Of a DNA stretch of 64,000 nucleotides, positions 7,454 through 48,731 are shown in pieces. The notes under the pieces are model-generated. The model saw only the letters and a program-made list of their open reading frames with translations. It was not told the origin of the DNA and did not search any database. A program made the translations under genes and the position numbers. Within the stretch, counting starts at the first letter, position 1; each line of letters opens with the position of its first letter. This stretch comes from Parafilimonas terrae (GTDB lineage: Bacteria > Bacteroidota > Bacteroidia > Chitinophagales > Chitinophagaceae): positions 62,001 through 126,000 of the forward strand of contig NZ_FOXQ01000011.1 in the NCBI RefSeq assembly GCF_900115755.1, given 5' to 3'.

Positions 7454-10400
7454 TTATTGTTGATTATTTGCAGTTGGCTGATTACGGTTAACAGCAAGCT
7501 GTTTATTCGAAACAACCTTAGCAGGTTTCTTTTTCTCGTCGCCAAAACCTCTTATATAACCCATTTCTTTTAATATAGGAACAACGTGTTTGCCTGCCAA
7601 TTTAACGGCTATGCTTGATCCCTGGCAACTTTCAATACGCACACACACAACAATATGGCCGCTGTCTTTTGGGTTAGGCGCAAAGAAAACATACAAGCCA
7701 TCATTCACTCTTTCATTTTTTACAATGCGTTCCGGCGTTCCTGTTTTACCCGCGACACTCATTCCCAAATGCCAAACCTTTGGAAGGCTTTGTTCAATCA
7801 TATATTTCGTCATCAGCTTTGAGGCAGAATCGCTTGCCAATTCAATACCCGGCAACAGTTTTGTTTGCTGCCCGCTTACTTTTAAAACATAACGGCTTTG
7901 CATCATTGTTCCATTGTTTGCAATCCCCGATGCGATACGCGCAACGGAAGCAGGCGTTGCAATTAATTCGCCCTGTCCCCACGCCATTCCCGAAATGCCT
8001 TTACCGCGTGTTCTTTTAATGTTAGACGGATTATAGCTTTTCAAACTTGCAAATTCTGTTTTACGCCAGAGTTGTTTCCATTCTTCCTGCTGCTTTTTAT
8101 TATTCATATCATAGTCATAATAATAACCACCAACACCATGCAAAAACATGCCTGATTTTAAATACAGATCACCCATATATTCCTGCAACTGCGATTCATT
8201 GGCAAGCCTTATAAAGAATGAATTATTTGACCTTACAATAGCGCGTTCAATATTTATATTACCTGCTTCATCAGGTTCGTAACCTTTTGTACGAATAAGA
8301 TCAGCAGGATAAACCTTAATAATTTTTTTCGATGCAGCAAGTCCTAATTTATTAAATGCGGCAAGCGCTGTAACAAGCTTTGCTGTTGAACCGGGCTGTG
8401 AAGCAATGGTAAAACCAATGTCATTATCTGTAATCCAGCCAGGCAATGCGTTTTGCTGTTGTGGCGTAAGATTAAGCATATCCCAGTCATTCACCTGCGG
8501 TAATGGATAATTGGCAGAAGCAAGCACATCGCCGGTTTTATCTTCCATTACAACCACAGAAACACGATTGTTCACCAGTGAGTCATCGCTTTGTAAAGAT
8601 TGCTGTATCCTTGTTTGTAAAGCGGCATCGAGCGTTAAATGAACATCACGGTTTTTGTTTTTAAATGAATCAACGGCAGTACTGTTTATACCGGCAAGCA
8701 ACAGCGGCGCCAATGCACTGTAATCTTTCTTCTCCACACTCATTTCCGTTGAAGTTTCAGGAAGAAAACGTTGTTCGTGATAACGTGTTGCACTTACTGA
8801 AAAACTGTTTTTAGGAATAGGAAAGCCACGCATTTCAGCCGCTTCGCGGTATTCAGCAAAATAACCGTTAGATGCACCGTTAAAAATATTTGTGTTGGCA
8901 TCGCCTGTCCAGAAAAACATTTGTGCGCCGAAAGGATAATAACGGTCCTGGCGTTTATAAAACATTGCATTTATATCTTCTTCCGGAATGTTCAATGCCA
9001 GCAATGAGTCGCGTTGTGTGTTAATTAAATCCTGGTGGCTCGTTGCCAGTATCCGGCCATTCCTGTCTAATAAATTTCCTGCCTGCAGCCTGTTCATTAA
9101 AATACTGATGCGCGGGTTGTAACTAAACATCCTTGCGCCGCTTCTGTCGGCAACCAATGCCGGTTGCACAATCCATTTTGCATTACCAAGAATGTATTTT
9201 GTTACACTCACGCCAAGCAATATAATTGCGGCGCAGGCTGCTATCAATGCAGGCATAAGATTTCTATCTTGTTGCTGCGATATAAATTTCATTTGTACAG
9301 GCGACCCTTGTACAGTTGATGCAGATAATAAAAATCCTGCAGCCAGCATGTTTGCTATTAACGACGAACCGCCATAGCTCATGAATGGCAAGGCTACACC
9401 CGATAAAGGCAAAGCGCCAACTGACCCTCCTGCAATCAGCAAAAACTGGACGAATGTTGCAATACCAATTCCTGCACATATATAAAACAAAAACGGCCTG
9501 CCGGAATGCCTGCCGATAACAATGGAACGATGCAGGTAAATAAAGAATACAATAAAAACACTGATGATGCCTGCAAGGCCAAACTCCTCTCCCATTGCAG
9601 GTAAAATCATATCCGTGTGTGCTTCGGGAATTGTTTTGGCAAAACCTTCGCCGGCGCCCTGGCCTGTAATGCCGCCGCCTGACATGGCCCAGATGCCGTT
9701 TGCAATTTGATCGCCGCCAAACACTTCATTATTCCACGGATCCTGCCAGATAGCTTTGCGGTCAATTAATCTTTCCATCGGGCCGGGAAAATATTCTGCT
9801 ATCAATGGTATTTTATCCAGTAATAAAAACGCGGCAATAACCACCAGCGCCATAACAGATGATTCGCTTATTTTTTTTGTGACAACTAATGTATAAATAA
9901 CAAAAAACACAGCAGTAACAGCCGTTGCAGTCAATACATTATCCAATAACCAAACAGCCAGCACATAAAACAGCACTGATATTGCCATGTGGGCAAAATC
10001 GCCTCTTGAAAAAGAAAATAAAATAATAAAGGCAAAACAGCAAACCATTGCAGGGCCTAAATCGCCCAGCATTAGAAAAAGAAATATTGTTGCAAGTATT
10101 GCAATTAATGCAAATGCAAAGAAGCGGCTGCGTTTCGTCCATGTAAAATAAGAAGAGATGAATTTTTCATTCGTGGCAAAGAAGCCTGCAAGAAAAAATA
10201 CTATAACAAATTTTACAATTTCGCTTGGCTGAAAACCGAAGAGGTTTACTTTAACGCCGCTGCCTTCAGGGCCGGTACCAAACAGCAATGTCATAGCCAA
10301 TAAACCGGATGCAATAACAGCCCAGGGCCATCCATTTGAAGCAAGCTTCATTTTGCTGAAAACAAATAGACGGTAGAGTTTTGAATCTGTTGTAAAACGT

Positions 10401-11593
10401 TTTAAATCGAACAATAACAATAAGATTATTCCAACAATGCCTGCTATGAAATAGCCAATTGTATTTTTTGCCAAAAACCAATCCCGCAAAGGATCCTGGA
10501 GGCTGAATAAGGTTATGAATGATAAGCCTGTAATCACCATTATGGCTGGCAATATTAACTGGTCGGCATTTTTAAACCACAAGCTCATCACCACATGCAG
10601 CAACAGGAAACCTGCAATAAAAGAAATGGAGATTATCCAAAACCATTGCATTACTTCATCGGGCGTTCTTACAATAAATGCTTTTTCCTTTTTAAGCGAA
10701 CTGAAATCTTTTGTGGAAAAGAGTTTTAAGCGGTGTGGTGAACGATAAAAATTAAAAGAGGCATCATGATCCAATTTTTCTATTCCCTGCGAATAACCGA
10801 AAGCATAATTCAATTGCAGCGGCAATATTTTATAAGTCTTGTCACCAGGAAGATTTTTGAAAACAAAATTACCATGCGCGTCTGTTTGTGCGTATGCCGT
10901 GAGCGATTGCAGTTGCTTATTGTTTAATGAGTCAACTGCATACAATTTTTTTACAGTGGTTGTATTTTGCTGCAGCATACTGTCAACTTCTTCCACATTG
11001 TTGCTGTATAAACTATCCTGCGGCAAAATCAATTGCAGGCGCACGATAACGTTTGGCACAGCAATGCCGGCTTCGTGTATAGAACCGCTGATGCTATGGC
11101 TGCCTGCATGCAAATCGTTAACGCTGCTAACCGCTGAACGATCCTTTTGCTGTAATGCAAACAATGCAGTTTCTTCATCTGTTATGCCTAACGCAATTCT
11201 TTCGCCCTGCACTCTTCGCTTGAATGTTTCACCGCCCTGTGATAAAGCAGTTTCGGCAAGTACGCTGTATTGCTTTTTATTCAAGTCTCCGATGTTATCA
11301 ATGGACGCGCTATCTGCAAGCCTTGTTTTTTCAAAAGTTGAACTGATTAAATTTATATCCTTCTCATCGCTGAAATAACGGCCTTTTTGCAAAAGCGTTT
11401 TCATATTCCCGGCATAATGCACATCGTTCAGGTTAATCATTGTGCCGTTTTTCAAACGATCAGGCACCTCTTTAAAACCTGCGTTTATAACCAGGTACAT
11501 TTTATAAAAAAGCACGGCCATTACTGCACTTAAAAGCAGTAAAAAAATCCTTTCTGTATTCCTGTTTATATGCTGTTTTGCTGGTGCACTCAT
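7454..11593 (-). CDS. SEDS glycan polymerase fused to penicillin-binding transpeptidase
   Basis: A 1379-residue inner-membrane protein that combines two normally separate peptidoglycan synthases. Residues 15-36 form a membrane anchor. Residues 37-315 are extracytoplasmic and include a small beta-sandwich-like segment (about 168-257, with TDAHGNFVFKNLPG). Residues 318-765 are the FtsW/RodA-type domain: FQPSEIVKF (454-462), IPEAHTDMIL with the catalytic Asp661, and the SEDS signature LPFMSYGGSSL (735-745). After another membrane helix (about 780-797) comes the transpeptidase: SxxK with Ser1069, SNN at 1122-1124 and KTG at 1283-1285. All key residues of both enzymes are present. The start overlaps the PP2C stop by 4 bp (ATGA), which implies coupled translation. 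The FHA gene follows after 11 bp. Confidence 0.93.
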   Translation of the reverse strand: MSAPAKQHINRNTERIFLLLLSAVMAVLFYKMYLVINAGFKEVPDRLKNGTMINLNDVHYAGNMKTLLQKGRYFSDEKDINLISSTFEKTRLADSASIDNIGDLNKKQYSVLAETALSQGGETFKRRVQGERIALGITDEETALFALQQKDRSAVSSVNDLHAGSHSISGSIHEAGIAVPNVIVRLQLILPQDSLYSNNVEEVDSMLQQNTTTVKKLYAVDSLNNKQLQSLTAYAQTDAHGNFVFKNLPGDKTYKILPLQLNYAFGYSQGIEKLDHDASFNFYRSPHRLKLFSTKDFSSLKKEKAFIVRTPDEVMQWFWIISISFIAGFLLLHVVMSLWFKNADQLILPAIMVITGLSFITLFSLQDPLRDWFLAKNTIGYFIAGIVGIILLLLFDLKRFTTDSKLYRLFVFSKMKLASNGWPWAVIASGLLAMTLLFGTGPEGSGVKVNLFGFQPSEIVKFVIVFFLAGFFATNEKFISSYFTWTKRSRFFAFALIAILATIFLFLMLGDLGPAMVCCFAFIILFSFSRGDFAHMAISVLFYVLAVWLLDNVLTATAVTAVFFVIYTLVVTKKISESSVMALVVIAAFLLLDKIPLIAEYFPGPMERLIDRKAIWQDPWNNEVFGGDQIANGIWAMSGGGITGQGAGEGFAKTIPEAHTDMILPAMGEEFGLAGIISVFIVFFIYLHRSIVIGRHSGRPFLFYICAGIGIATFVQFLLIAGGSVGALPLSGVALPFMSYGGSSLIANMLAAGFLLSASTVQGSPVQMKFISQQQDRNLMPALIAACAAIILLGVSVTKYILGNAKWIVQPALVADRSGARMFSYNPRISILMNRLQAGNLLDRNGRILATSHQDLINTQRDSLLALNIPEEDINAMFYKRQDRYYPFGAQMFFWTGDANTNIFNGASNGYFAEYREAAEMRGFPIPKNSFSVSATRYHEQRFLPETSTEMSVEKKDYSALAPLLLAGINSTAVDSFKNKNRDVHLTLDAALQTRIQQSLQSDDSLVNNRVSVVVMEDKTGDVLASANYPLPQVNDWDMLNLTPQQQNALPGWITDNDIGFTIASQPGSTAKLVTALAAFNKLGLAASKKIIKVYPADLIRTKGYEPDEAGNINIERAIVRSNNSFFIRLANESQLQEYMGDLYLKSGMFLHGVGGYYYDYDMNNKKQQEEWKQLWRKTEFASLKSYNPSNIKRTRGKGISGMAWGQGELIATPASVARIASGIANNGTMMQSRYVLKVSGQQTKLLPGIELASDSASKLMTKYMIEQSLPKVWHLGMSVAGKTGTPERIVKNERVNDGLYVFFAPNPKDSGHIVVCVRIESCQGSSIAVKLAGKHVVPILKEMGYIRGFGDEKKKPAKVVSNKQLAVNRNQPTANNQQ

Positions 11594-13017
11594 CTTTCGT
11601 GTACAATAGTTTTAGCTGAATCAATTTTTAATAAAGCACTGTCTGAAATAACACCGGACACACGCGTATCAGCAGGCAAGCTGACAGCATAAGCAATAGG
11701 AACAACACAATTTTTAAACCGCACATCTTTTAAATGCACAGCGGTACCGCGGGCAATAAATGCCGTATTAAAATTTTCAAATGTTATACTGTCAAGCAGT
11801 ACGTACTTGCACTGCGGAAAGAAAATAAAGGCTGCATCATTATAGCTTGAATCAGCAACAAGCAAAGCATTATTGCCGTGTATGATTAACGTATCAGATT
11901 TGATAAGCAAAGAATCATTTATTACAACCTTAGGATTATTACCAAAAAGATTTCTTAATGAAATAATATTTGATGTTGAATTTTTAATACTGTCTGACAG
12001 TTTTACAACCTGGCTGTTTCTTTCCATACGGGGAGGGTCGGGCATAACAACAGAAGCGCTGTTATTACCAACATAATCTTTGTAAATAAACCAGGAAAGC
12101 ACTGCAATTAACAGCAAACAAAGCACTACGAGAAAACGAATGAAAGCGCCGCCATTTTTCTTAACAACAATTTCTTTTTTTATATATTCAACGGGAACTG
12201 CGGTGGCTATTTCTTGTTCCGGTTCCACTTTTTTAGCAACCGGTTTTGTAGCCTCATATTGTGAGGGCGATTTATCATTCTGAATTAAAACAACAGTTAT
12301 ATTATCTTTTCCGCCTGCAAGATTAGCGGCATCAATTAACGCTGCAGATTTTTGTTTTAATGTTTGTGGTGAACTTAAGATACCGGTTATCGTTCGGCTG
12401 TTGATCATATCATATAAGCCATCACTGCATAACAATAAAGTATCGCCCGGTAAAAAGGGAGACTCTCCTGTGTCAATATAATCCGGTTCAGAAAATTTTA
12501 CTTCATCAAAGCCAAGCGCTTTATTTATTTCATTGCGTTTGGGATGGCTCATGGCCGCTTCTTCCGTTAAGCGGCCGCTCTCTTCAAGAAAGCCAACAAA
12601 AGAATGATCGTGAGTAACTTTTACCAACGAGTTATCGCGGAAGAGATACAGCCTCGTATCGCCAATATGTGCATAATAAAATTTGTTATCATTAATATCA
12701 ACAAGCGCAAGCGTAACCACACAGGCCATCTGGTTATGCTTATCGCTTTTTTGTTTCTTTTCAAAAATCTTTTTGTTTGCTTCAGTAAGTGCTGCCTTGA
12801 GCAAATGAATTACATCGCCCGATGCATTTTTTAATGTATTAAGAATAGTTGCACGTGTAAGCGCTGCAGCAATTTCTCCGCCCTCATATCCGCCAACGCC
12901 ATCAATAACACAGCCAACAATATATTTATCGTGCACAATTTTCTGCGCTATAAAATTATCTTCATTATTGTCGCGCATTTTGCCCGTATCCGTATTGCCG
13001 TAAAAGTTATCAGCCAT
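11590..13017 (-). CDS. PP2C-type Ser/Thr phosphatase with membrane anchor and outer domain
   Basis: A 475-residue protein. Residues 1-247 are a PP2C (PPM) phosphatase, which removes phosphate from Ser/Thr with two Mn/Mg ions: RDNNEDNF (15-22), DGVGGYEGG (39-47), HIGDTRLYL (117-125), CSDGLYDMI (197-205) and GKDNITVVL (236-244), with all metal ligands present. A charged linker follows, then one transmembrane helix (291-313). Outside it lies a region of about 160 residues rich in short beta strands with repeated NNALLV/DSITFENF-like turns, reminiscent of a short right-handed beta-helix. It is the natural partner of the kinase at 4878-6506 and is translationally coupled to the SEDS-PBP gene by a 4-bp overlap. 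Confidence 0.92.
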   Translation of the reverse strand: MADNFYGNTDTGKMRDNNEDNFIAQKIVHDKYIVGCVIDGVGGYEGGEIAAALTRATILNTLKNASGDVIHLLKAALTEANKKIFEKKQKSDKHNQMACVVTLALVDINDNKFYYAHIGDTRLYLFRDNSLVKVTHDHSFVGFLEESGRLTEEAAMSHPKRNEINKALGFDEVKFSEPDYIDTGESPFLPGDTLLLCSDGLYDMINSRTITGILSSPQTLKQKSAALIDAANLAGGKDNITVVLIQNDKSPSQYEATKPVAKKVEPEQEIATAVPVEYIKKEIVVKKNGGAFIRFLVVLCLLLIAVLSWFIYKDYVGNNSASVVMPDPPRMERNSQVVKLSDSIKNSTSNIISLRNLFGNNPKVVINDSLLIKSDTLIIHGNNALLVADSSYNDAAFIFFPQCKYVLLDSITFENFNTAFIARGTAVHLKDVRFKNCVVPIAYAVSLPADTRVSGVISDSALLKIDSAKTIVHER

Positions 13018-13111
13018 CGTTCCTGTGCGTTTTTTTTACATCGCGAAAATTAGCCGCCAGCAATAACAGGCAAACTGCAAACAGCGATGATGAAAGAATA
13101 ATATTTAACAT
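13010..13111 (-). CDS. possible 33-residue single-pass membrane peptide
   Basis: An ATG at 13111 opens a 34-codon frame that ends in TGA at 13010-13012. The peptide starts MLNIILSSSLFAVCLLLLAA and continues with a short charged tail (NFRDVKKTHRNDG), so it has one hydrophobic helix and a basic cytoplasmic-type end. Its last codons overlap the start of the PP2C gene by 8 bp, a spacing typical of translational coupling. I recognise no family. Because it is so short, chance cannot be excluded; the support is the hydrophobic-then-basic layout and the overlap with the next gene. Confidence 0.4.
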   Translation of the reverse strand: MLNIILSSSLFAVCLLLLAANFRDVKKTHRNDG

Positions 13112-13322: not shown

Positions 13323-14273
13323 TCATGATTTAAAAATATTCACACCCACAATACCATTCAGCACAATACGCGAATTAAGCGGCAGCGGCACCCAAACCGG
13401 GTTATCTGTATTGCTTGCCACTACTTCATTTTCATTTACCAATGTTTTTTCACCAAACGAAGCCAGGTAAAATTTTTGGTCATCGTTATTAAACTTTACC
13501 CGCAAATGCGGCGTATTCACCCATTCTGAGGGTATGCGAAAAACATCTTCCTTATCCGCAGCTTCATCTTTACCTGAAATAAGAATATCAGTTTCCCGCA
13601 TATAATATTCAATCTTTTTTCCGGCAAATTCTTTATCTGGCACAATGGTTTCAAACCTTGCAAGTAATTTACTCTCACTGTTTTTTACGGCTTTATCGTG
13701 CATGCTAAAATGCTGGTCGTAAGCAATTTCATAATAGCCATCGCTGTAAAAAATAAAACCGTCCAATAACTCAGGGTTTACATCAAATGTTTCTGCAATG
13801 CCTGTTTGCCTTGGTATAAAAGTTACCCTTAAACTTTCTTTTTTTTGATGGATGCTGCCCGGCATTAATTTACCAATAACGCTTTTATCACCGCGTAAAT
13901 ATTCAGGGTGCGCTGCAAAGCGGAACACCCATTTACTGGAAGATGGAGCAACCACCTTTCCTTCATTGTTATACCGTTCAAGAATATTGTAAAATTGCTT
14001 TACACATTCCTGCACAATCAATCCGAAAATGCCTTTTTTGTTTTGCGTGAACTGTGTATAATCTTCTTCATTAAAACATACAATGTATTCATGAAAGAAA
14101 ACAATGCGGTTGGCAAATGACAGCTCTTTTACAGAGTCTTCAAATTTCTGAATAATGTATTTATATATATCATCGGCAGTAAGCGGCGGCGCCTGTTTTA
14201 TATCATAAGTGGCTTCCCGTTTCAAAAACCATTCGTGAAAACCCATGCGTTGCCAGAAAGAAGTTGTTTTCAT
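13323..14273 (-). CDS. protein with degenerate FHA-like C-terminal domain
   Basis: A 316-residue cytoplasmic protein with no signal peptide. Residues about 1-215 are an uncharacterised region. Residues about 228-316 follow the FHA fold pattern: ETDILISGKD, then TPHLRVKFNNDDQKFYLASF, then LVNENEV and a final hydrophobic strand VVGVNIF-like (GIVGVNIFKS). The Gly-Arg and Ser-x-x-His residues that hold phosphothreonine are not conserved, so phosphopeptide binding may be lost. The gene is upstream of the PP2C gene on the same strand, 305 bp away. The 32 bases before its ATG match those before the DUF4105 gene at 27 positions. The call is by fold pattern and context. Confidence 0.55.
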   Translation of the reverse strand: MKTTSFWQRMGFHEWFLKREATYDIKQAPPLTADDIYKYIIQKFEDSVKELSFANRIVFFHEYIVCFNEEDYTQFTQNKKGIFGLIVQECVKQFYNILERYNNEGKVVAPSSSKWVFRFAAHPEYLRGDKSVIGKLMPGSIHQKKESLRVTFIPRQTGIAETFDVNPELLDGFIFYSDGYYEIAYDQHFSMHDKAVKNSESKLLARFETIVPDKEFAGKKIEYYMRETDILISGKDEAADKEDVFRIPSEWVNTPHLRVKFNNDDQKFYLASFGEKTLVNENEVVASNTDNPVWVPLPLNSRIVLNGIVGVNIFKS

Positions 14274-14385: not shown

Positions 14386-14841
14386 TTAGTTTTTATTTTT
14401 TTTTCCAAAAAGTCTTTTAAAAAAGCCGGGCTTTTTTTCAGGCTCTTTTTTTTGAGTTGTTGTACTTGCTGCTTTTTTTATTTTGCGTTCTGCTGCAAGT
14501 GCCTGGTTTGAAGCAGTGGTATCGCTTGCCAGCACATTCACTGCACGGCCATTATATTGCTGAATATGCTCCGCATTATTAAGCCAGATGCTATGCTGTT
14601 TACTATGTAAAATGCGTTTGGTGCCAAGTGTGCCGGGCTCTTTTCCTGAAGCCACAAATAAAGAATCCCAGGTTTCGCCGCCGTCTAAAGAATAGATATA
14701 TTCTTTATTCACAACATCATAATAAGTGTTTTTTTCAGGATAGTAATAAAACTCGTAATCTTTCTGCAACACATTATTGCATGAACAGATCATCAAACTA
14801 AAAACAACAGAAAAACAAAACAATATTGGCGTTTGTTTCAT
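14386..14841 (-). CDS. small lipoprotein with basic C-terminus
   Basis: A 151-residue protein that opens with a lipoprotein signal (MKQTPILFCFSVVFSLMICSC, lipid-accepting Cys at about residue 21), so it should sit in the inner or outer membrane facing the periplasm. The middle (residues about 28-85) has the word SLDGGETWDSLFVASG, similar to an Asp-box-type turn. The end is lysine-rich with GFFKRLFGKKNK. I recognise no family. It lies between the FHA-like gene and a membrane-protein gene on the same strand, and its leader resembles that of the FHA-like gene. Confidence 0.7.
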   Translation of the reverse strand: MKQTPILFCFSVVFSLMICSCNNVLQKDYEFYYYPEKNTYYDVVNKEYIYSLDGGETWDSLFVASGKEPGTLGTKRILHSKQHSIWLNNAEHIQQYNGRAVNVLASDTTASNQALAAERKIKKAASTTTQKKEPEKKPGFFKRLFGKKNKN

Positions 14842-15604: not shown

Positions 15605-18241
15605 TTATCTTATTAAAACAAAACTGCCTTTCTTTAAATAGGGCTTATTGTTATAGTCCGTTGCTTCCACAACGTAAACATACGTGCCGCCTGGTTGTTT
15701 GTTCCCATTGTAGGTTCCATCCCAGCCTTTGTTTGGAGTGCCGGTATTAAACAGCAATTGTCCCCAACGGTTATAAATCCTGAAATAGAAAAACTGTTTC
15801 ATTCCTGCAACCGTTACTTTATATACATCATTTACGCCATCACCATTAGGTGAAAAAGCTGTTGGAATAAATACCTGTGGTTCTGTTTCAAAAATGTAGA
15901 TTTTAATGCTATCGTAACTGAAACAGCCTTCAGGCGTACTCACTTTTACTTTGTAGGAAACCGTATCCGGGCCGTCAGTAAATGTTGCAACAGGATTGGC
16001 TATAAACGGATCGCTTAAACCGGAAGCAGGCATCCACTGATAATTAGTGCCGCCTTTAGCCTCAAGCTGCAACGGTTGCTGGCGCACAATAACGGTATCA
16101 TTACCCGCATCTGCCATCACCCTTGGAATAACCGATATTATAACAGAATCACTTACAGGTTTGGGACAGCCAATTGTATCTGTAACCGATAATATATATG
16201 TTGTTGTTGACTGCGGCCCGGCAAGTGGTGACAAACTGCGTGAATTTACCAGTGAGTTTACCGGCGTCCAAGAAAAACCGGAGCCTTCTATATTAGCGTG
16301 CAATTGAGTTGTGGTGCCATAACATATACTTATATCATCGCCCGCATCAGCGGAAGGATAAGGCACTACAGTTACATTAATTGCATCTGTTGCCTTGCAT
16401 TTTCCAACTGAAGCGGTAACAGTATATTTTGTGTTTGATAACGGAACCGCTACCGGTGCTTTTGCAGTGTCGCTGCTTAAATTTTGTGCAGGCGCCCAGG
16501 AAAAATAAAGCGCGTTGGTGGATGGCGTAAGCAGTATGCTGTCTGTTTTACAAATAGCTGTATCGGCAGGCAATTCCAGCGACACTTTATCAATAACATT
16601 TACGACAACCGAGTCTTCAGCAACACAACCTTTATAGCTTACAGTAAGATTATATTTAGTGGTTTGTTTTGGATAAACATAAGGCTTCGCTGTGTTTGAG
16701 CCAATTAAATTGTAGGCTGGCAACCAATTAAAGGTTGCACCCTCCGTGGATGAAGATGCATTTAACCTGAGTGTATCAATGCTGCAGATGAGCGTATCCC
16801 TAAAACCCATGGCAACATTGGGGCCGGTATTAACCGCCAGCACTTTCGTAGCTGTATCAATGCAACCTTTTGAGCTGGTTGTAATTAATGTAATGATCTT
16901 CTGGCCGGTATCAAAATAGTTATGAGTTGGATATTGAACAGTATCACCAGGCGGAATAAAAATTCCGCCATCATTAATTTCATCCCCAAAATACCATTTC
17001 CAGGAATCAACAAATCCATACTTTGTTGTGGTTAAATCTTTTAAATTATACGGGTTGAATATGCAACTGCCATCAATAGAAAAATCTGTTTTAAAACCGG
17101 GGAATATTTTTACCTCCGCCTTCGCTGAATCTTCACAACCCTTATTGTTGTTAGCTTTAAGCCGCACCGTATAAACGCCTGTATCGGGGAAAGTATAAGT
17201 TGGAGAAGCTTCGGCAGAAGTATCAGAAGTAAGGTTGGTAATACCAAAATCCCATGAATATGTATAATTAGGATTATTGCCCGCTTTATTTACAAATGTA
17301 AAATCAAAACCATCACAGGTTATGTAAGACGGATCCAATTGAGCGCCGCCTAATTTACAATTAGACACTTCAAGATGCAGTTCTTTTCTTGTATGGCCAA
17401 TATACTTTCCATTCCTGTATTCATCAATACAAACTGCCGCAACATAGGTGCCTGTTTTATCGGGGGCTATGCCTGAAAGTACGCCTGTTTTTGAATCGAT
17501 TGAAACATTTGCGCCAAGCGGCCGTGTGCCGGAATAAGGGGAAATGTAAGAAATAGAACTATAGGGAGGCGCGGATGGATCTTCCACCACCGGTTCAAAC
17601 TGCGTGCCGCCGGTTAATCCGCTGCACAGTGAATATACGAGTTCATCCCCATCAATATCTTTAGCTGAAAAATCGAAAGAAAAAGGAGAGCCAACGCAAA
17701 TAGCTGATGCATCATTGAAACTAAAAACAGGGCTGTTATCGTTGCTGTTGCTCCCGCCGGGAATTGTAATGGTGTAAGTTAATCCAAAACTGTTTGAAAC
17801 CGGCACATTTGCAATGCCGGCAATACGGCAGCAACGTTGCACCGAAAGCGTATAACCGTCTTCATTTTCAGGAACACTGATGGTGGTTGTATATTCTGCC
17901 ACGAGATAGCATACATACGGAGGGTTTTGAAAACAAGGACCGAAATCATTTTTTGATTCAGTGGTTAAGGTGGCCTGAGGAATATATTTAACCATCGTTG
18001 GCTGTGAAGAATTTGCATCGAACACCGCCATGTAAATACCGGCATCCACCTTTTCGCGCTGGCTGCAGTCTGAATACTGATAGAAAGAAATTTTGTAATT
18101 AAGCGTGCTGCCAGTTTTACCTGTAAATGTATATTTCATCCAGCCACCTTTAAGATGGTCGGCATAAGATTTTTGTGCCGATAAAAGAATTATTAACACA
18201 AACAACAGTCTTAAAATATTTAAATTTTTATGCAGCCTCAT
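15605..18241 (-). CDS. secreted multi-domain protein with PKD-like repeats and CHU_C sorting domain
   Basis: An 878-residue secreted or surface protein. Residues 1-27 are a signal peptide (ends QKSYADH). An N-terminal region to about 290 has conserved cysteines and a cadherin-like segment (FDFSAKDIDGDELVYSL). At least two PKD-type repeats follow (YSWDFG with SPTYTFPDTGVYTVRL; WKWYFGDE with PTHNYFDTGQKIITL). Then come Ig-like repeats of the SWTPVNSL/NWLPAYNL/FSWAPAQNL type. Residues about 790-878 are the gliding-motility-associated C-terminal domain (IPTAFSPNGDGVNDVYKV, then YNRWGQLLFNT and GGTYVYVVEATD). That domain directs export through the type IX secretion system. Likely an adhesin or surface-layer protein. 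Confidence 0.88.
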   Translation of the reverse strand: MRLHKNLNILRLLFVLIILLSAQKSYADHLKGGWMKYTFTGKTGSTLNYKISFYQYSDCSQREKVDAGIYMAVFDANSSQPTMVKYIPQATLTTESKNDFGPCFQNPPYVCYLVAEYTTTISVPENEDGYTLSVQRCCRIAGIANVPVSNSFGLTYTITIPGGSNSNDNSPVFSFNDASAICVGSPFSFDFSAKDIDGDELVYSLCSGLTGGTQFEPVVEDPSAPPYSSISYISPYSGTRPLGANVSIDSKTGVLSGIAPDKTGTYVAAVCIDEYRNGKYIGHTRKELHLEVSNCKLGGAQLDPSYITCDGFDFTFVNKAGNNPNYTYSWDFGITNLTSDTSAEASPTYTFPDTGVYTVRLKANNNKGCEDSAKAEVKIFPGFKTDFSIDGSCIFNPYNLKDLTTTKYGFVDSWKWYFGDEINDGGIFIPPGDTVQYPTHNYFDTGQKIITLITTSSKGCIDTATKVLAVNTGPNVAMGFRDTLICSIDTLRLNASSSTEGATFNWLPAYNLIGSNTAKPYVYPKQTTKYNLTVSYKGCVAEDSVVVNVIDKVSLELPADTAICKTDSILLTPSTNALYFSWAPAQNLSSDTAKAPVAVPLSNTKYTVTASVGKCKATDAINVTVVPYPSADAGDDISICYGTTTQLHANIEGSGFSWTPVNSLVNSRSLSPLAGPQSTTTYILSVTDTIGCPKPVSDSVIISVIPRVMADAGNDTVIVRQQPLQLEAKGGTNYQWMPASGLSDPFIANPVATFTDGPDTVSYKVKVSTPEGCFSYDSIKIYIFETEPQVFIPTAFSPNGDGVNDVYKVTVAGMKQFFYFRIYNRWGQLLFNTGTPNKGWDGTYNGNKQPGGTYVYVVEATDYNNKPYLKKGSFVLIR

Positions 18242-37346: not shown

Positions 37347-40300
37347 TTATAACCCTACCTGCAAACCCACATTAAATACACGTTGATTTAGGTAAGCATC
37401 ACCAACTGTATTGGTGGCCACTTCTGGGTCTTGCTGGTAAAGTTTAAAATTAGTCCATGTAAGCAGGTTATAACCACTGAAATAAAACCTTGCATTATTA
37501 ATTTTTAAAGGCAGCCATTTCTTTGGAAACTGGTAACCAATATCAACAGATTTCATACGCACATACATAGCATTTACGAGCCAGAAATCGGAAGGATAAG
37601 CAGTGGGGCTGCTTTCATACGATGCATTGCTGCTCAGCCTTGGAAATTTTGCATTAGCTGCAGTTGCTTCCGTCCATCTTAATTCATGCACCGGCTGCCA
37701 CTGGCTTTGAAAAGGCTGTATGCCAATACCTGTAACCTGGAAACTATAATCAAATGCGCCCTGGAACAATATACTTAAATCAAAACCTTTATAGTGAAAC
37801 CCAAATGTTATACCGGCATTCAAACTGGGTATATTGGGCTTTCCAATTGGCCCCTGGTCGCGCTCATCAATCACACCATCATTATTGAGGTCTTTATATT
37901 TAAGATCGCCGGGTTTAATAGAAGAAGGATCAATATTCGGCTTTGCGCTCTTATCAATATCTTCCTGGCTTTCATAAAAACCAATGGCCGTATAACCAAA
38001 TGGCTGGCCAATAGGATGGCCTGTTCTTGCCAGCCAGGGATAGGTTTGGTTTGGTTCATCTTCATAAATAATTTTATTCTTTGCATAATTGATAACGCCT
38101 GTAATATCATACGCAATATCGCCCACCTTATCCTGGAATTTTATCAATCCCTCAAACCCGCGGTTGCGTACGCTGGCAATATTGGCCCTGGCCAAACCAA
38201 CGCCTATAATGGATGGAACTGAACCGGGAAACCACAACTGGTCGTACCTGTATTCATTGAACACATCAAACTGCATGGATATTTTATCATGCACCATGTT
38301 AATGTCAAGGCCAATGTCTGCTTTTCTTGATTTTTCCCAGGTAACATTGGGATTGCCCAGGCTGCCTTCATAAAGGCCTTGTGTTATGTTGCTGTTAGTG
38401 CCGAAATAATAGAAGCTGCCTCTTGAATACACCTGCTGGTATAAATAGCGGTTGTCAATCACCGCATCAGAACCCACCAAACCATAAGAGCCACGAAGTT
38501 TAAACAGTTGGAAAACAGGGAAAGCATTTTTAAAGAAATCTTCCTGCGCCAGGTTCCAGCCAATACTGCCGGCAGGAAATATGCCATAACGGTGGCCTGC
38601 CGCAAAACGGTCTGAACCGTTATAGGCTGCGTTAAAATCAACTATATATTTTTGTTTATGATCATAGTGGAGGCTTAATGTAGTGCCACGCAGTTTTTGC
38701 GGTACCGCCAGTGTGCCGCCGCTTTTTGTAACATAACTTTCCTGGTTAAACAATGCAAATGCAGAAAAATGATCCTGGCCAAAAGTGCGGTCATAGGTTA
38801 TAAAACCCTGGATATTTAAACGTTTGTCAAAAAGATCGTTGCCGCCGCTTAAAGCAAATGGAGCCAGTTCATACAAGCCGTTTTTATCAAGCGTGTAACC
38901 GCCCGATGAATCGTAATGATAGGCAGGCGGCGTAGCCGTGCGTGCCTGCGTTCTTGTAATATCATTTGTACCTGCATAAGCAATGCGCAGGGAAGCGCCG
39001 AGGCCTTGTGTTATAAAATCGAAGCGCTGGTTTACATCAAATAAAACATTAAAATCGGTCCTGTTGTTTCTTGAATAACCCATGGTCGCAAGCCTTGCAT
39101 TAAGGGTAGGCACATTACTGAGGTTTGGCCCGAAAGCATAAGCATAACTTCCGTCAGGATTCAATACCGGCGCAGCATACGGCGTTATGATCTGGTAATT
39201 ATATATTTCAGACATAACGCTGTTAATGATGGTAGTGGGGCTGAGTGTTGGCGCATAGAATAACGGCGAATTCACCTGCCCGAACCTGCCCGAAACATCA
39301 AGCCTGAGCTTGGTTGTCCTCGTGGCCTGTATATCTAAATTGCTCCGGAAGTTATAACGGTTATAAAAATAGTTGTTATGAACGCCCTGGTTGCGCGGAT
39401 CGGAAAAATTATTCAGGTTGCCATTCTGCGTAAAGGCGCCGGCAGAAATAAAATATTTTACATTATCGGTTCCACCTGAAATATCAACGTTCGTATTGGC
39501 CTGCAGTGAACCTTTTTTAAGCACCACATCATACCAGTTCACATCGGGATAAACATAAGGATCGTCTTTTGTTTTATAATGATTTAACTGCGATTGTGTA
39601 AACTGCGGCTGCAGGCCATCATTGTTCAATGCTTCATTTACCAGTGTTGCAGATTCGTAAGCGTTTAAAAATTTGGGCACTCTTGTAGGTGTGTTGTAAC
39701 CGCTTTCCACACGCACATTCACCTGCGGCGCACCATTTGCACCGCGGCGTGTTTTTACAATCAATACGCCGTTGGCGCCTTTAATGCCATATACTGCTGT
39801 GGTAGAAGCATCTTTTAGAACAGAAATACTTTCAATTTCGTTTACATTTATTTGTGCAAGCTGCTCGTAAGTATATTCCACATCATCCACAATAATCAAT
39901 GGTTTATTGCCATCAGGATTTAATGAACTTATACCGCGTATAAAAAAGTCTGATGCGTCTTTGCCCGGCTGCCCGCCACGTTGTACGGAGAATACTCCAG
40001 GCACTCTTCCCTGTAAAGTATTTTGTACAGCTGAGGTAGGCACACGCCTGATAGATTCTCCCGAAATTGTGCTTACGGCGCCGGTATTGGTTACACGTTT
40101 TTTTGTTCCATAACCCACTACAACCACCTGGTCAAGTCCCTGGTCGTTTGGCTGCAGGATTATTTCCAATGTTTTTGATGCATCTTCAATTTTCACTTCC
40201 TGCGTTACATACCCAATGTTTGAAACTATCAATGTTTTTGATCTTCCTTTAAGAGTAAGCCTGAAGTTTCCATCAGCATTTGTGGCCGTGCCATTGGCCG

Positions 40301-40442
40301 GCAAACCTTTCTCTACAACAGATGCAGATGCCAGCGGCCCTTCTATATTTTTTACGCTTCCCCTTACTGTTTGCGCATGCACGCCAACAGTAAAACATAA
40401 ACAAATAAGTATTGGTAATATGAATGAAAAAGTTCTTTTCAT
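37347..40442 (-). CDS. SusC/RagA-type TonB-dependent outer-membrane transporter
   Basis: A 1031-residue outer-membrane protein that imports oligosaccharides using TonB energy, with a SusD lipoprotein as lid. Signal peptide 1-23 (ends GVHAQ), a carboxypeptidase-regulatory-like domain (about 25-100, TATNADGNFRLTL), the plug domain with VVVGYGTKKRVTNTGAVST (about 107-125), SVLKDASTTAVYGIKGANGV (about 207-226), then the barrel, ending RVFNVGLQVGL. It is full length. Oddly, no SusD gene follows it; it is the last gene of the locus on the minus strand and 248 bp from the preceding SusD. An orphan SusD (46906-48615) at the other end of the block is the likely partner. Confidence 0.93.
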   Translation of the reverse strand: MKRTFSFILPILICLCFTVGVHAQTVRGSVKNIEGPLASASVVEKGLPANGTATNADGNFRLTLKGRSKTLIVSNIGYVTQEVKIEDASKTLEIILQPNDQGLDQVVVVGYGTKKRVTNTGAVSTISGESIRRVPTSAVQNTLQGRVPGVFSVQRGGQPGKDASDFFIRGISSLNPDGNKPLIIVDDVEYTYEQLAQINVNEIESISVLKDASTTAVYGIKGANGVLIVKTRRGANGAPQVNVRVESGYNTPTRVPKFLNAYESATLVNEALNNDGLQPQFTQSQLNHYKTKDDPYVYPDVNWYDVVLKKGSLQANTNVDISGGTDNVKYFISAGAFTQNGNLNNFSDPRNQGVHNNYFYNRYNFRSNLDIQATRTTKLRLDVSGRFGQVNSPLFYAPTLSPTTIINSVMSEIYNYQIITPYAAPVLNPDGSYAYAFGPNLSNVPTLNARLATMGYSRNNRTDFNVLFDVNQRFDFITQGLGASLRIAYAGTNDITRTQARTATPPAYHYDSSGGYTLDKNGLYELAPFALSGGNDLFDKRLNIQGFITYDRTFGQDHFSAFALFNQESYVTKSGGTLAVPQKLRGTTLSLHYDHKQKYIVDFNAAYNGSDRFAAGHRYGIFPAGSIGWNLAQEDFFKNAFPVFQLFKLRGSYGLVGSDAVIDNRYLYQQVYSRGSFYYFGTNSNITQGLYEGSLGNPNVTWEKSRKADIGLDINMVHDKISMQFDVFNEYRYDQLWFPGSVPSIIGVGLARANIASVRNRGFEGLIKFQDKVGDIAYDITGVINYAKNKIIYEDEPNQTYPWLARTGHPIGQPFGYTAIGFYESQEDIDKSAKPNIDPSSIKPGDLKYKDLNNDGVIDERDQGPIGKPNIPSLNAGITFGFHYKGFDLSILFQGAFDYSFQVTGIGIQPFQSQWQPVHELRWTEATAANAKFPRLSSNASYESSPTAYPSDFWLVNAMYVRMKSVDIGYQFPKKWLPLKINNARFYFSGYNLLTWTNFKLYQQDPEVATNTVGDAYLNQRVFNVGLQVGL

Positions 40443-40462
40443 CGTATGAAGTTTATAATTTT

Positions 40463-40687
40463 CGTGAAACGTGAATCGTCAAACATGAATACACCAGGTT
40501 GATAATTCATCTTTCATTTTGTTATTTAAGTCTTTGTTATTCTTTTCGTGAATAATATATTTTGTTTTAATCCAGCTTTATATTTCTGTCCAGGTTTTTA
40601 TAACATGCATCGCCGGAAAAGGCTTTACAAAATCAAACCGTAAATCAGCTATCGTTTGCATTCACGATTCACGATTAACCATTCACG
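40463..40687. repeat. inverted pair of four-unit 7-bp arrays
   Basis: 40463-40490 is four 7-bp units of the form CGTSAAW (last unit CATGAAT). 40660-40687 is four units of the form ATTCACG (third unit ATTAACC). The arms face each other across 169 bp of AT-rich DNA without a frame, and the pair fills most of the gap between SusD and SusC. The layout is the same as at 13138-13321. Confidence 0.68.
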
Positions 40688-40690
40688 CCA

Positions 40691-42361
40691 TCACTGCCAT
40701 CCCGGGTTCTGCCGCATGTTTTCGTTACTCACCACTTCATTGTATGGAATGGGATAGAAATACATTTTCGATTCGTCAAAAGCTGTTGTAAGCACCGGCT
40801 GAATATTATACACGAGGCCATTGGGGCTGTTGATAATATTCATGGCATGTAAAGGCGCATCATTATAAACATGGCCCGCAATTTTCCAGCGGCGTATATC
40901 CCAGTAGCGCTGTTCTTCAAATGCCAATTCTTTATGTCTTTCATTGCGGATAACAGTTCGCAATGAATCTTTTGAAATACCATGATCCAAAGCATAAGGG
41001 TTTAATCCTGCCCGCTGCCTTATTTTTTCAACTGCTGCAAACACATCATCAGAAGGGCCTGCATATTCATTCATGGCTTCTGCATACATCAATAAAATAT
41101 CTGCATAACGGAAATAGATGAGATCGTGATAATGATCTTCGTAAGTAGTTGTATTTTCAAAATGCCCCATGAATTTGCGCAGGTAATAACCGGTTTGTGT
41201 TTGCACTGTTGCACCGCCCGGCCTGTTGATGCCGCCTATGTATGTTTGAATAGGCGTATTTAACCATTGGGCGCCATTGTACAATACTGTATATCCTAAA
41301 CGCGGGTCTCTGCCTGTGTATGGGTCTTCAGGATTATAACCTGAATTGGGATCATTAATCTCAAGGCCGTTTGCCATGCCATAAGCATCCACTAATTCCT
41401 GCGTTGGGCTTGTATTGCCGGAGCCCGGCGCTGTAGCATAATTGATAGGCCCGTTAGTAGTTTCTACCGTTTTGCCCGTAGTATTTGTTTTGGCATAAAT
41501 AACTTCCTTGCTGCGTTGCGAAATAAATATGTCGATAAAATTTTCTTCAAGATCATAAACGCCCTGGTTCATTATTTCTTTGGCAGCGTCAGCAGCCAGC
41601 TTCCAGCGGTTAGCATCATAACTATCGTAACCATTTAATGAATCAGCTATATTGCCGCCATTATACAAAGGGCTTGCAGCATATAATAACACCCGCGCTT
41701 TTAAAGCCCTTGCCGCATCTTTTGTAAAGCGGCCATAATTGGCATCATCAACGGGGTCATCCCTCAAACTGTCGGCTGCACGGTTGCATTCATTTACAAT
41801 ATAGTTTACGCAGGTTGCAAATGAACTGCGTGGTATTTCAATATTATCTTCCAGCGTTTTTAATGAATCGCCTAATATGGGCACGCCTCCATACCGCCTT
41901 ACGAGTTCCCAGTAAAAGAATGCACGCATCACCCTTGCTTCACCAAACCAGGAACGTTTTTCATTCACATTCTTTAAAGGCACTGCGCCAAAATTGTTGA
42001 GAAAATTCGTAGCCATTCTTATGCCTTTATAACTGCTGGCCCATGCATCATCAGGATTATTAAAAATGGTTATACCATTCGTGGCCAGCAGGGTGATGGA
42101 TTGCGCCGTTGTTTGCGATGTAACTGCATCATCAGAACCGGCATCCAGAAAATCGCGGCCAATGCGGTTGCTTGTAATCTGAGGTAAGGCCGCATAAATG
42201 GAAAACAAGTACTGGCTTGCATAGACTCCGTTCGAATCTTTTGCATCCCATATATAATCGGGCGTAACTGTTTCTACCGGAACGCTTTCATATTTTCTGC
42301 AGGAACTTAATGCTGCAACACAGCCTGCTATAACAATAAATATGGCAATATATTTTTTCAT
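40691..42361 (-). CDS. SusD/RagB-type glycan-binding lipoprotein
   Basis: A 556-residue surface lipoprotein that captures glycan and caps its SusC partner. The lipobox ALSSC (Cys at about residue 21) follows a typical signal. The TPR-type helices of the family carry NNFGAVPLKNVNEKRSWFGEARVMRAFFYWELVRRYGGVPIL (about 110-151; aromatic/Arg-rich helix and the YGGVP word). Further words are ALKARVLLYAASPLYNGG (about 215-232), ADILLMYAEAMNEY (about 420-433), IRQRAGLNPY and ERHKELAFEEQRYWDIRRWK (about 477-496). The end is QNPGWQ. It begins 12 bp after SusC 42374-45400, the canonical order, so those two are a pair. Confidence 0.93.
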   Translation of the reverse strand: MKKYIAIFIVIAGCVAALSSCRKYESVPVETVTPDYIWDAKDSNGVYASQYLFSIYAALPQITSNRIGRDFLDAGSDDAVTSQTTAQSITLLATNGITIFNNPDDAWASSYKGIRMATNFLNNFGAVPLKNVNEKRSWFGEARVMRAFFYWELVRRYGGVPILGDSLKTLEDNIEIPRSSFATCVNYIVNECNRAADSLRDDPVDDANYGRFTKDAARALKARVLLYAASPLYNGGNIADSLNGYDSYDANRWKLAADAAKEIMNQGVYDLEENFIDIFISQRSKEVIYAKTNTTGKTVETTNGPINYATAPGSGNTSPTQELVDAYGMANGLEINDPNSGYNPEDPYTGRDPRLGYTVLYNGAQWLNTPIQTYIGGINRPGGATVQTQTGYYLRKFMGHFENTTTYEDHYHDLIYFRYADILLMYAEAMNEYAGPSDDVFAAVEKIRQRAGLNPYALDHGISKDSLRTVIRNERHKELAFEEQRYWDIRRWKIAGHVYNDAPLHAMNIINSPNGLVYNIQPVLTTAFDESKMYFYPIPYNEVVSNENMRQNPGWQ

Positions 42362-42373
42362 AATTCTTCTTAC

Positions 42374-45300
42374 TTAGAACTTAACATTAAGGCCGAAATT
42401 GATGATGCGCTGATTGGGATAAGCCTGCTGATATACTTCCGGGTCAACACGGTCGAAGGCCGCATGCGTAAACAGGTTAAGGCCATTGGCAAATACCCTT
42501 ATCTGCGTCATCTTTAAACGGTTAACCAGCTTATAAGGCAATGAATAACCTATCTCTGCATTTTTTAAACGGAAGTAATTACCGTTGCGCATCCAGTAGC
42601 TGCTCCAGAGATCATTGTTGGCATTGATACCAGGCGTAAGCCGCGGAAATGCAGACGCAGTACCAATTTCGGGCGTCCATCTTCCAACTATGTAAGTATA
42701 TGCCTGCTGTGTGCCTGACCCGAATGAATTATCAATCAGCAAATATTTTCTGTTGGCAACACCCTGCAGCAATACACTTATATCAAAACCTTTGTAGCTG
42801 ATGCTGGCTGTTACGCCATAAAACATTAAAGACTTTGATTCGCCAATAGCTGTTTGATCGTATTGATTGATCAAACCATCATCATTTAAATCTTTATATT
42901 TTATATCGCCGGGCTGCAACGTATAACCTGCAGGCGCTGCTGCTGTTTCAGCTTCTTCCTGTGTTTGAATCAATCCATCGGCTATATATCCAAATTCAAT
43001 ATTTACACGCTGGCCGGTGCGTTTATTCCACCCATAAGCCTGTTCAATCTCATCACTGTAAATAACTTTTGATTGCTGCGAAGAAATATTGCCTGAAATA
43101 GCGTAATTAAAATCTTTGATATTATTCTGATAAGTAGCCTGCACTTCAATGCCTGAATAATTATTAATGCCAAGGTTTTCATACGGATAACCAATACCGA
43201 TCATGGATGATTGCTTGCCACGCAATTGCAATAAATCGAAGTAGCGGTTGTTATAATAATCGGCAGTTAATAAGAACTTATTCTTAAATAAAGCGGCATC
43301 TATACCCACATTATATTTATCAGCTTTCTCCCATGTTACATTCGGATTGGCAAGCGTGGTTTGCTGTGTTACGCCCTGTGAGGCCCTGTTTATACCAATA
43401 GGATAGGTTGGGTTAACGATATTCAACTGGTAGCTTTCACGCCATGTGAAATAGCCCACATTATCATTGCCTGTTCTGCCGTAAGTTGCACGGAGTTTAA
43501 GATTGTTTATCCAGCTAACATTGTCTTTAATAAAGTTCTCTTTGGCAAGGTTCCAGCCCAGGCCGGCACCATAAAATAAACCAAACTGGTTGCCTGGCGG
43601 ATAGTAATCCTGTCCGCTGTAATTCACGGCTGCTTCAAGAAAATATTTTCCATCAAAATCATACGTTCCTGCAAGTGCAATATTCTGCAGCGTTTTAGGC
43701 AGGTCGTAATTAAATATGCTTTCATACCTGTCGTAAAAAGCTTTTACAGTAAAGTTGTTTTTCCTGATGGAACGCGTATAACCTAAAGCACCCTGCAAAT
43801 ACCAGAACTGCGCACTGTAAGTGAGGTTGAAATTATTTCCCTGGTCGGTAAAATTTCCATAACGGTTATACGATGTATCGTTGCCGCTTACAGAGAATTT
43901 AAAAGAAGGAACACCTGCGCTCCTGTTGGTGGAATTGGCTGCATATACCGAAATATTGCTTTGCACTTTTGCCCATAAACCCGGCACAAACTGGTCGAAT
44001 TTATAATTGAGTTCCAGGTTTGAAAAAATATCCCTTTCATAATCTTCTATATAACCTGATTGGGTTAATTGCGCATACAAGTTTCTTTGAAAAGCCTGTG
44101 TGCCGCCAAAAGAACCATCAGGATTGAATACAGGATAAGCATTATTAGGCGTTGAATACATCTGGCTGATGATGGCATCTGTGCCGCCGCCGGGCTGGTT
44201 TTCTTCCTGCACCCGTGCAAACAATTGCAGCTTTGCATTAAAATACTTCGTTACATCCACATCAATATTGGAATTAACAGTGTAACGCTTTATCGTAGCG
44301 TTGGTTTCATAAGCAGGGTTACTGCCATTGAACAATGCATTGTCAGATAAATAACCCAGACCAATTGTATAACGTGCTGCTGTGCCGCCACCTGTTACAT
44401 TCAGGCTGTACCGGTTTATAAGCGAATTGTTTTTTAATATGGTATTAAACCAGTTTACATCGGGATGGCCATAAGGGTCCGAATGATCCCGGTATGCATG
44501 AAAGTCTGCTTCTGTGTAAGACAAAGGTTTGCCTTCATTGCTTTGCGCTTCGTTATACAAATAAGCATACTGGTATGCGGGCAAAGGATCGGGTAATTCA
44601 AGCGCCTGCTGTATGCCTGTTTGCGCCGTTAAAGAAATGTGCGGCTTACCTGCCACCGGCTTTTTTGTTGTAACCAGTATAACGCCTCTTGAACTTCTTT
44701 GCCCGAGCAATATGGTTGAAAGGCCATCTTTCAGCACGCTCACAGATTCTATGTTTTCAGGATCGATCGTATAAATATCGCGTTGCACGCCATCAACAAT
44801 TGTAATGGGTGATTGACCGCGCAGGGTAAGGTTTATCTCGGTATTATCATTAGGTGCACCGAGGCCTTTCTGGTTTGGATAAAACAATCCATCCACGTCA
44901 ACCGAGCCAAGTGCATTATCGTTGAAACCTTTCCAGCCGCGGTTTTGCTGCGTATATAAACCCGGCAGCCTTCCTGCCAGTGCATACGCATACAATGATG
45001 CCGGTGTTGTTGTAAGCTGGCCGTTATAAATGGTGGAAACAGATCCTAATATTTTTTGATTATCCCTTGTTTCATACAAAACATCTGTTGTGGCAGGCGC
45101 TGCAAATGCAGCGGGTGTAAGCTTTGCAATGATTATGGCTGATGAATCAGGTACGGCAATGCTGCTGGTTTTATAGTTGGAATAACTGAATTGCAGCACA
45201 TCGTTTGGCTGTATTGCAATGCTGAACACGCCATCTTCAGCCGAAGTTGTTACGGCGTTTGTTTTCTTTGACTGAATGGTAACGCCTGCCAGCGCACGCC

Positions 45301-45400: not shown

Positions 45401-45449
45401 ACAACAATTTGTTTTAGCTATGATGGCTTTATGCATGTTCAGGCTTTTA

Positions 45450-46448: not shown

Positions 46449-46450
46449 GT

Positions 46451-46885: not shown

Positions 46886-46905
46886 ATATTTCAATTTTAT
46901 CTTTT

Positions 46906-48615: not shown

Positions 48616-48731
48616 ATCATCGTTATTGTATATAGTCACTCATTTTTTTTGCAACCGCTATTAAGTTCTAATTATTTCTTAATTATTTTTTAACCTGCGG
48701 TGCTATTAAATTATATAAAGAAAAGCCGAAC

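Follow-up and report, generated by a model that had tools for sequence, protein, structure and literature searches.

SEDS polymerases and class B penicillin-binding proteins (PBPs) have been studied as separate partners and have been fused artificially to make them easier to handle (PMC10449877, PMC6207328). Artificial RodA-PBP2 fusions polymerize lipid II (PMC10449877, PMC6207328) and bind bocillin (PMC10449877). In E. coli, RodA is activated by changes in the pedestal of PBP2, which MreC is believed to bring about (PMC6207328). Natural open reading frames joining a SEDS protein to a PBP are mentioned in a single sentence, cited for Rhodococcus sp. RHA1 (PMC10449877), which qualifies the statement of an earlier sequence-based note (the original prediction) that the two enzymes are usually separate. 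Here we describe such a natural fusion, encoded in a 64,000-nucleotide stretch of DNA from Parafilimonas terrae (contig NZ_FOXQ01000011.1, positions 62,001 to 126,000; 'the window' hereafter). While a SEDS-PBP fusion as such is already known, the fusion family and its cassette of kinase, PP2C phosphatase and FHA genes appear to be new; no description of either was found in a literature search, most subscription papers being outside its coverage.

The actinobacterial cluster pknA-pknB-pbpA-rodA-pstP-fhaB-fhaA, in this order, comprises separate SEDS and PBP genes that serve growth, as well as the phosphatase gene pstP. Its kinase, FHA, SEDS and class B PBP genes have been described, and FhaA was found to restrain MviN after phosphorylation by PknB (PMC3989709). 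The window matches the gene content of this cluster (kinase, PP2C, FHA, FHA-like, SEDS and PBP), but its SEDS and PBP are fused and additional, and its kinase has no recognized PASTA part. In Enterococcus faecalis, wall stress induces additional SEDS proteins that are genuine polymerases (PMC12724132). These proteins, FtsW2 and RodA2, resemble the fusion in being present beyond FtsW and RodA, but they pair with separate class B PBPs and are controlled by a two-component system (PMC12724132). The Rhodococcus protein likewise has SEDS and PBP in one open reading frame, a likeness drawn from its brief mention in print (PMC10449877). With the RodA-PBP2 and FtsW-FtsI complexes, the fusion shares the same two enzyme domains and the catalytic residues of the E. 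coli proteins; it differs from them by its single chain, its extra N-terminal domain, the separate clades of its halves and the adjoining signalling genes. As a whole, it is probably best explained as a phospho-controlled accessory bifunctional peptidoglycan synthase, with both activities predicted from sequence.

The fusion frame (Table 1) has the coordinates originally predicted, to which we can add that it lies on the minus strand. It starts with ATG and comprises 1379 codons without any internal stop, encoding, from the N-terminus onwards, a domain anchored in the membrane, then a SEDS polymerase and finally a class B transpeptidase. The FTSW_RODA_SPOVE family (PF01098) matched in two stretches (E 2.8e-45; 155.3 bits for a cut-off of 26.4), and the Transpeptidase family (PF00905) matched above the Pfam cut-off (E 1.2e-23). 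The Pfam scan showed no further family in the fusion at E 0.001, and the PBP half, with SxxK, SxN and KTG motifs in its transpeptidase domain and no GT51 match by Pfam, is assigned to class B. All the motifs claimed for the protein stand at the predicted residues, i.e., Asp661 in PEAHTD and the SYGGSS of the SEDS half, and Ser1069 (SxxK), SNN (1122-1124) and KTG (1283-1285) of the transpeptidase. Between residues 346 and 735, overlapping hydrophobic stretches were too merged for a safe count of helices, of which ten are expected in a SEDS protein. E. coli FtsW and RodA also carry HTD at the position of the catalytic motif. As a separate observation, the FtsW of the window's own genome (L001) has QAYNDSIY and its RodA (L002) has EQSTDFIF in place of HTD, so that this motif varies among the SEDS types of one cell.

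Residue conservation was assessed on 82 aligned frames, comprising that of the window, a plasmid copy and an 80-locus set (with L117 and L121 as long pieces). A scan of named genomes gave 571 stretches, confirmed against a Rhodothermia-type member, of which the set keeps the best 80; it is no census, its rows are related and not independent, and one pair (L102 and L104), 99.96% identical and located on a single contig, is counted twice. Ser1069, Lys1072, Ser1122 and Asn1124 were, like Asp661, identical in all 82 frames, and Lys1283 and Gly1285 in 81, with one gap, while Thr1284 was replaced by Ser (KSG) in 6. The frame was unbroken in 20/20 loci of a first set (window's own included) and in 78/80 of the larger one. 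The search rows of some relatives showed a stop inside the match, and those of these loci that were re-read in the first set proved to be single frames. The seven other genomes of the genus that we searched all had a fusion match, cut by contig ends in four (G002, G003, G006 and G007). Comparison with a same-genus copy (L041, 1376 codons) gave proportions of synonymous and nonsynonymous differences (pS and pN) of 0.638 and 0.123, respectively, indicating purifying selection; pN was 0.157, 0.085 and 0.110 for the N-terminal, SEDS and PBP parts. With a second copy (L042), synonymous sites were close to saturation. The uninterrupted frame claimed originally was thus confirmed: a frameshift or assembly join was ruled out by the 78/80 relatives in which the frame is single and the catalytic residues are shared, and a degenerate copy by these residues and by purifying selection.

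In a tree of SEDS sequences (63 rows), 26 fusions made up one side of a branch, and 22 fusions did so in a PBP tree (49 rows), with a support of 100 in each case by the Shimodaira-Hasegawa-like approximate likelihood ratio test (SH-aLRT); both trees were quick searches with this test only, unrooted and without Actinobacteria or Firmicutes, with long branches flagged for L149 and the rows of E. coli. The finding of an own clade for both halves fits with halves that have travelled together since an old fusion. It led us to reject a recent fusion of the lineage's own ftsW or rodA with its ftsI or pbp2. The equivalog scores agreed with the placement outside the FtsW/RodA orthologs (151.5 against 337.5 bits and 130.6 against 336.7 bits) and outside the PBP2/FtsI orthologs (84.5 against 455 bits for PBP2). 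The Rhodothermota rows were placed differently in the two trees. Fusions from Chitinophagaceae fell in more than one group within Bacteroidota, one of these near Spirosoma and a Flavobacterium; together with a plasmid-borne copy described below, this split suggests horizontal transfer.

The genome of the window (44 contigs, 100% complete by tool estimate) contained three SEDS frames, namely an FtsW-type on C20, a RodA-type on C43 (types taken from the tree) and the fusion. There were six transpeptidase matches, i.e., the fusion and frames of 695, 704, 839, 827 and 325 residues. The 695-residue class B PBP directly precedes rodA on C43 and the 704-residue one lies about 5 kb from ftsW on C20; they were placed with PBP2 and FtsI in the PBP tree. 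At least two separate SEDS frames were found besides the fusion in 31/31 fusion genomes (30 distinct, G385 and G741 being one assembly), and five further ones, of which three were Acidobacteriota, also had separate SEDS genes (5/5; the second of these in G744 is split at contig ends). At least two separate PBP frames of class B size were found in 11/11 fusion genomes searched. The possibility that the fusion is the sole rodA and pbp2 of its genome was therefore ruled out, in the window's genome by the FtsW- and RodA-type genes and the two class B PBPs, and more widely by the separate SEDS genes of all 36 fusion genomes searched. The presence of these separate genes makes the fusion a predicted synthase that is additional to the division and elongation pairs.

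An extra transpeptidase could act as a backup against wall-directed antibiotics, remaining active when PBP2 and FtsI are blocked, with the kinase reporting wall damage. The matches of the transpeptidase half in the PDB are mostly low-affinity enzymes of the PBP2a and PBP5 types, but this ranking mirrors which structures were solved, and the NCBIfam model for PBP2 (mrdA) scored higher (84.5 bits) than the mec models (at most 36.3 bits). The extra SEDS proteins of E. faecalis serve cephalosporin resistance (PMC12724132), and the occurrence of the fusion is patchy and once plasmid-borne, as would suit a backup, but no resistance gene was present among the identified cassette genes. We consider this role unlikely, though by no means far-fetched.

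The fusion is surrounded by signalling genes (Table 1). The PP2C phosphatase has one transmembrane helix (293-311) followed by a tail of about 160 residues, and the kinase likewise has a single such helix (366-384), its tail giving a weak Sel1/TPR signal below the threshold. PASTA domains were looked for in the kinase tail and none was found; the kinase itself scored 139.3 bits with the PASTA-kinase model, for a cut-off of 450. The stop of the PP2C gene overlaps the start of the fusion by 4 bases (ATGA) and only 11 bases separate the fusion stop from the FHA gene, a spacing as in a translation-coupled operon. The other gaps are larger (165 bases before the kinase gene, 305 between X316 and PP2C). 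We also noted a 33-codon hydrophobic frame on the minus strand (window 13010-13111), whose end falls within the start of PP2C; it may encode a small membrane peptide or be due to chance. X151, with its hydrophobic N-terminus and what reads like a lipobox, is perhaps a lipoprotein; its homologues lie close to the cassettes of some relatives, not of all.

Table 1. Coordinates in the window of the fusion gene, its parts and the neighbouring cassette genes
Feature	Coordinates	Strand	Basis
SEDS polymerase + class B transpeptidase fusion, 1379 aa	7454..11593	-	sequence, Pfam, family alignments
N-terminal transmembrane helix, residues 11-39 in model	11477..11563	-	AlphaFold2, hydropathy
N-terminal domain, residues ~40-310	10664..11476	-	AlphaFold2, Foldseek, sub-threshold Pfam
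SEDS (FtsW/RodA) domain, residues ~346-760	9314..10558	-	PF01098, TIGR02210 match 346-760, tree
Catalytic Asp661 codon in SEDS domain	9611-9613	-	identical in 82/82 aligned frames
Transmembrane helix linking SEDS to transpeptidase part, residues 779-797	9203..9259	-	hydropathy
Transpeptidase domain, residues 1012-1330	7604..8560	-	PF00905, alignment, tree
Transpeptidase motif codons	Ser1069 8387-8389; SNN 8222-8230; KTG 7739-7747	-	
PP2C Ser/Thr phosphatase, 475 aa	11590..13017	-	Pfam; hydropathy
FHA-domain protein, 256 aa	6672..7442	-	PF00498, 23.0 bits vs cut-off 20.7
Hanks-type Ser/Thr kinase, 542 aa	4878..6506	-	PF00069
X316, conserved cassette protein, C-terminal part degenerate-FHA-like	13323..14273	-	homologues in relatives
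X151, small protein, hydrophobic N-terminus	14386..14841	-	sequence, hydropathy

The composition of the cassette was well conserved. In the first 20 loci (window's own included), PP2C upstream and an FHA homologue downstream of the fusion were found in 20/20, a kinase in 20/20 (standing between PP2C and the fusion in 7) and an X316 homologue in 19/20, the remaining locus, L059, starting at a contig end. On the strand of the fusion, the 80-locus set contained FHA in 79, PP2C in 75, kinase in 73 and X316 in 70, and its nine Acidobacteriota loci had FHA (9), kinase (9) and PP2C (8). As a control, we inspected 14 neighbourhoods of separate ftsW or rodA genes in seven genomes, where the four partner families were all absent at E 1e-4. 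A chance clustering of the fusion with kinase genes was therefore rejected.

In the window's genome, the cassette proteins were the sole matches to PF13672 (PP2C_2) and PF00069 (Pkinase) at E 0.001, these two being the PP2C and kinase models searched. A third, signal-linked synthase, as suggested by the original prediction, gains strength from these two flanking genes and from the conserved partners. The same two sole matches would also suit a catalytically dispensable sensor, in which the SEDS-PBP body would be a receptor of lipid II or of the wall feeding the kinase pathway. A pure receptor would, however, be expected to lose some catalytic residues, whereas both halves keep theirs over three phyla, under purifying selection, which makes such a sensor highly improbable.

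In the 256-residue FHA protein, Gly153-Arg154, Asn181, Ser185-Arg186 and His188 were identical in 16/16 sequences. We take these Gly-Arg, Ser-Arg-x-His and Asn residues to be those that bind phosphothreonine. Five members of X316 were scanned for the Pfam FHA domain, which exceeded the cut-off in that of Spirosoma, fell short of it in L050 and gave no hit in those of the window, L045 and L056; the N-terminal part had no Pfam identification. As its FHA-like end is devoid of the phosphothreonine residue set, X316 may bind something else.

The equal gene content raises the question of whether the locus and the actinobacterial fha-pstP-rodA-pbpA-pkn cluster share a common descent, rodA and pbpA having become fused in Bacteroidota. 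Two FHA-type genes, SEDS, a class B PBP and a kinase are present in both (PMC3989709 for the actinobacterial ones), as is PP2C, but our trees were made without actinobacterial sequences, the N-terminal part of X316 matched no Pfam family, the kinase is far under the PASTA-kinase cut-off, and clustering may have been convergent. We hold this descent only tentatively, as somewhat unlikely; it concerns the origin of the locus and can be compatible with an accessory synthase.

We also looked at the distribution of the fusion (centre genome counted in each sample). It was found in 23/195 genomes and 14/101 genera of a sample from the window's family, in 5/198 genomes of an order-level sample, in 15/395 genomes and 9/171 genera of a phylum-level sample, and in 8/151 genomes of the class around an Acidobacteriota carrier. 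As the E thresholds were strict (1e-30 within the genus, 1e-50 for the family, 1e-40 for phylum and order, and 1e-60 for the Acidobacteriota class), remote fusions may be missed. Five of the 15 carriers in the phylum-level sample were distant members (about 27-30% identity) from other classes within the phylum as the tool delimits it, among them G385, a Roseithermus that is filed by NCBI under Rhodothermota. By NCBI ranks, the 80-locus set comprised 69 Bacteroidota, 9 Acidobacteriota and 2 Rhodothermota, with hosts such as Spirosoma, Larkinella, Pedobacter, Mucilaginibacter, Niastella, Segetibacter and one Flavobacterium. The NCBI annotation of a Spirosoma member reads merely 'FtsW/RodA/SpoVE family cell cycle protein'. 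Two of 72,556 plasmid records matched the fusion, one of them over its full length. A plasmid of Spirosoma oryzicola (NZ_CP089545.1) carries, in a row, FHA, PP2C, two kinases, the fusion and FHA.

A few loci were unusual. Pedobacter panaciterrae (NZ_LGEL01000011.1; L102 and L104) has two cassettes in opposite orientation that are 99.96% identical over at least 19.9 kb, which points either to an extensive inverted duplication or to an artefact of assembly. In Spirosoma panaciterrae (L149/G748), there is a highly divergent second fusion whose strand also bears X316 and PP2C, FHA and kinase being on the opposite one, and G853, a genome from the Acidobacteriota-class sample, also carries two fusions. 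Flavobacterium sp. SUN052 (L106) contains a Spirosoma-like fusion with just one short FHA partner close by, which reflects either a transfer or a mislabelled genome. In Roseithermus sacchariphilus (L069 and L075), the fusion frame extends upstream into a stretch resembling a PP2C tail (GGYDNITALVV); going by the sequence, this could reflect read-through, overlapping genes or an additional fusion event.

SpoVE and SpoVD, which act in sporulation, are a precedent for a stage-specific synthase. The fusion could similarly have a developmental or polar role restricted to a given stage or site, for example the cyst, the resting cell or the tip of a filament, in line with its dedicated signalling genes and its presence in just part of each clade. 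The hosts span Rhodothermales, Acidobacteriota and Pedobacter, however, and we know of no stage common to them, so that this role seems to us quite unlikely.

The N-terminal region (residues 1-345) was modelled with AlphaFold2 from an alignment of 55 rows (window and 54 relatives), with a mean predicted local distance difference test score (pLDDT) of 94.4. The model showed, in succession, a transmembrane helix (11-39), helices (about 40-150), a beta sandwich (about 155-290) and a second transmembrane helix (311-339). Judging by the two flanking helices and by how SEDS proteins are known to be oriented in the membrane, the domain between them would be extracytoplasmic. With Foldseek, the sandwich gave local matches to CnaB domains of pilins (target TM-score of about 0.5 for the C-terminal domain of SpaA, with a root-mean-square deviation (rmsd) of 7-10) and to carboxypeptidase D (rmsd of about 5), and Pfam showed sub-threshold signals for NOMO_3rd (E 0.0057) and CarboxypepD_reg (E 0.055). 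We tentatively regard the modelled sandwich as CnaB/transthyretin-like, the name being tentative because the matches used were local, with an rmsd of 5-10. Catechol dioxygenase, at the top of the Foldseek list, was set aside since it aligned mostly over the whole model at an rmsd of 13-22 (about 7 for two 2boy rows). The helical part had no assignable Foldseek match. The extra domain announced by the original prediction is thus present, with the qualification that part of it tentatively resembles CnaB/transthyretin-like domains and that it is shorter in distant relatives.

How the accessory synthase might work can be proposed from these elements. The SEDS half would polymerize lipid II and the transpeptidase half would cross-link the resulting strand; as both enzymes are in one chain, their activities would always be 1:1. 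By analogy with the artificial RodA-PBP2 fusions, which are active (PMC10449877, PMC6207328), the natural one is likely to be active too. The N-terminal domain, held between its two transmembrane helices, is likely either to sense the wall or to act as an activator of the enzyme in cis, a job that partners such as MreC would do for RodA-PBP2. The kinase and PP2C, both of which have a single transmembrane helix with a tail beyond it, probably set a phosphothreonine signal that the FHA protein reads, the synthase being thereby switched or placed when extra wall synthesis is needed. We infer this phospho-switch logic by analogy with PknB, FhaA and MviN of Actinobacteria.

Several observations weigh against a phospho-controlled synthase as we propose it. 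Among the 80 loci, X316 was missing in 10, a kinase in 7, and a same-strand PP2C or FHA in 5 and 1, respectively. Contig ends explain this in part; L088 and L106, with full upstream flanks, are without PP2C or kinase, the FHA protein being their sole cassette partner shown. X316 was matched in only 2/9 Acidobacteriota loci, weakly (E of about 5e-5). Neither of the two Rhodothermota loci has the full cassette: L074 has FHA and an opposite-strand PP2C near the contig start, and L075 has kinase, X316 and FHA, with no separate PP2C found. The patchy occurrence says that the fusion gene is dispensable, and the kinase might act elsewhere. As to the N-terminal domain, the fold match is weak (query TM-scores of 0.16-0.23 among the matches listed), just 168-203 residues of Acidobacteriota members align with the 345 of the window, and a Roseithermus frame (L069) is devoid of the sandwich. 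Being shorter or partly missing in distant members, the domain is not essential in that form. For this reason we put lower, as an unlikely though not negligible possibility, a more ambitious version in which the locus would encode a self-contained third class of wall machine, with a built-in N-terminal domain in lieu of the usual activator proteins and with its own kinase, phosphatase and FHA proteins, transferred between bacteria as a cassette (once on a plasmid). In the window's genome, the fusion would then be the main client of the sole Hanks kinase and PP2C found.

Elsewhere in the window, positions 37347-55435 contain pairs of TonB-dependent receptors and SusD-like proteins, a probable glycosidase, a sigma factor and a hybrid two-component regulator, and look like polysaccharide-uptake loci by their gene content. 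A large secreted protein is encoded on the minus strand at 15605-18241; its C-terminal end resembles a gliding/type IX secretion sorting domain.

The predicted accessory synthase belongs to a large natural SEDS-PBP fusion family, spread over three phyla, that could be directly usable by biochemists. To our knowledge, the Ser/Thr kinases of such bacteria have been little studied. In the window's genome, where a single kinase and a single phosphatase are encoded next to the extra synthase, a link between phosphorylation and wall synthesis would be testable by simple deletions.

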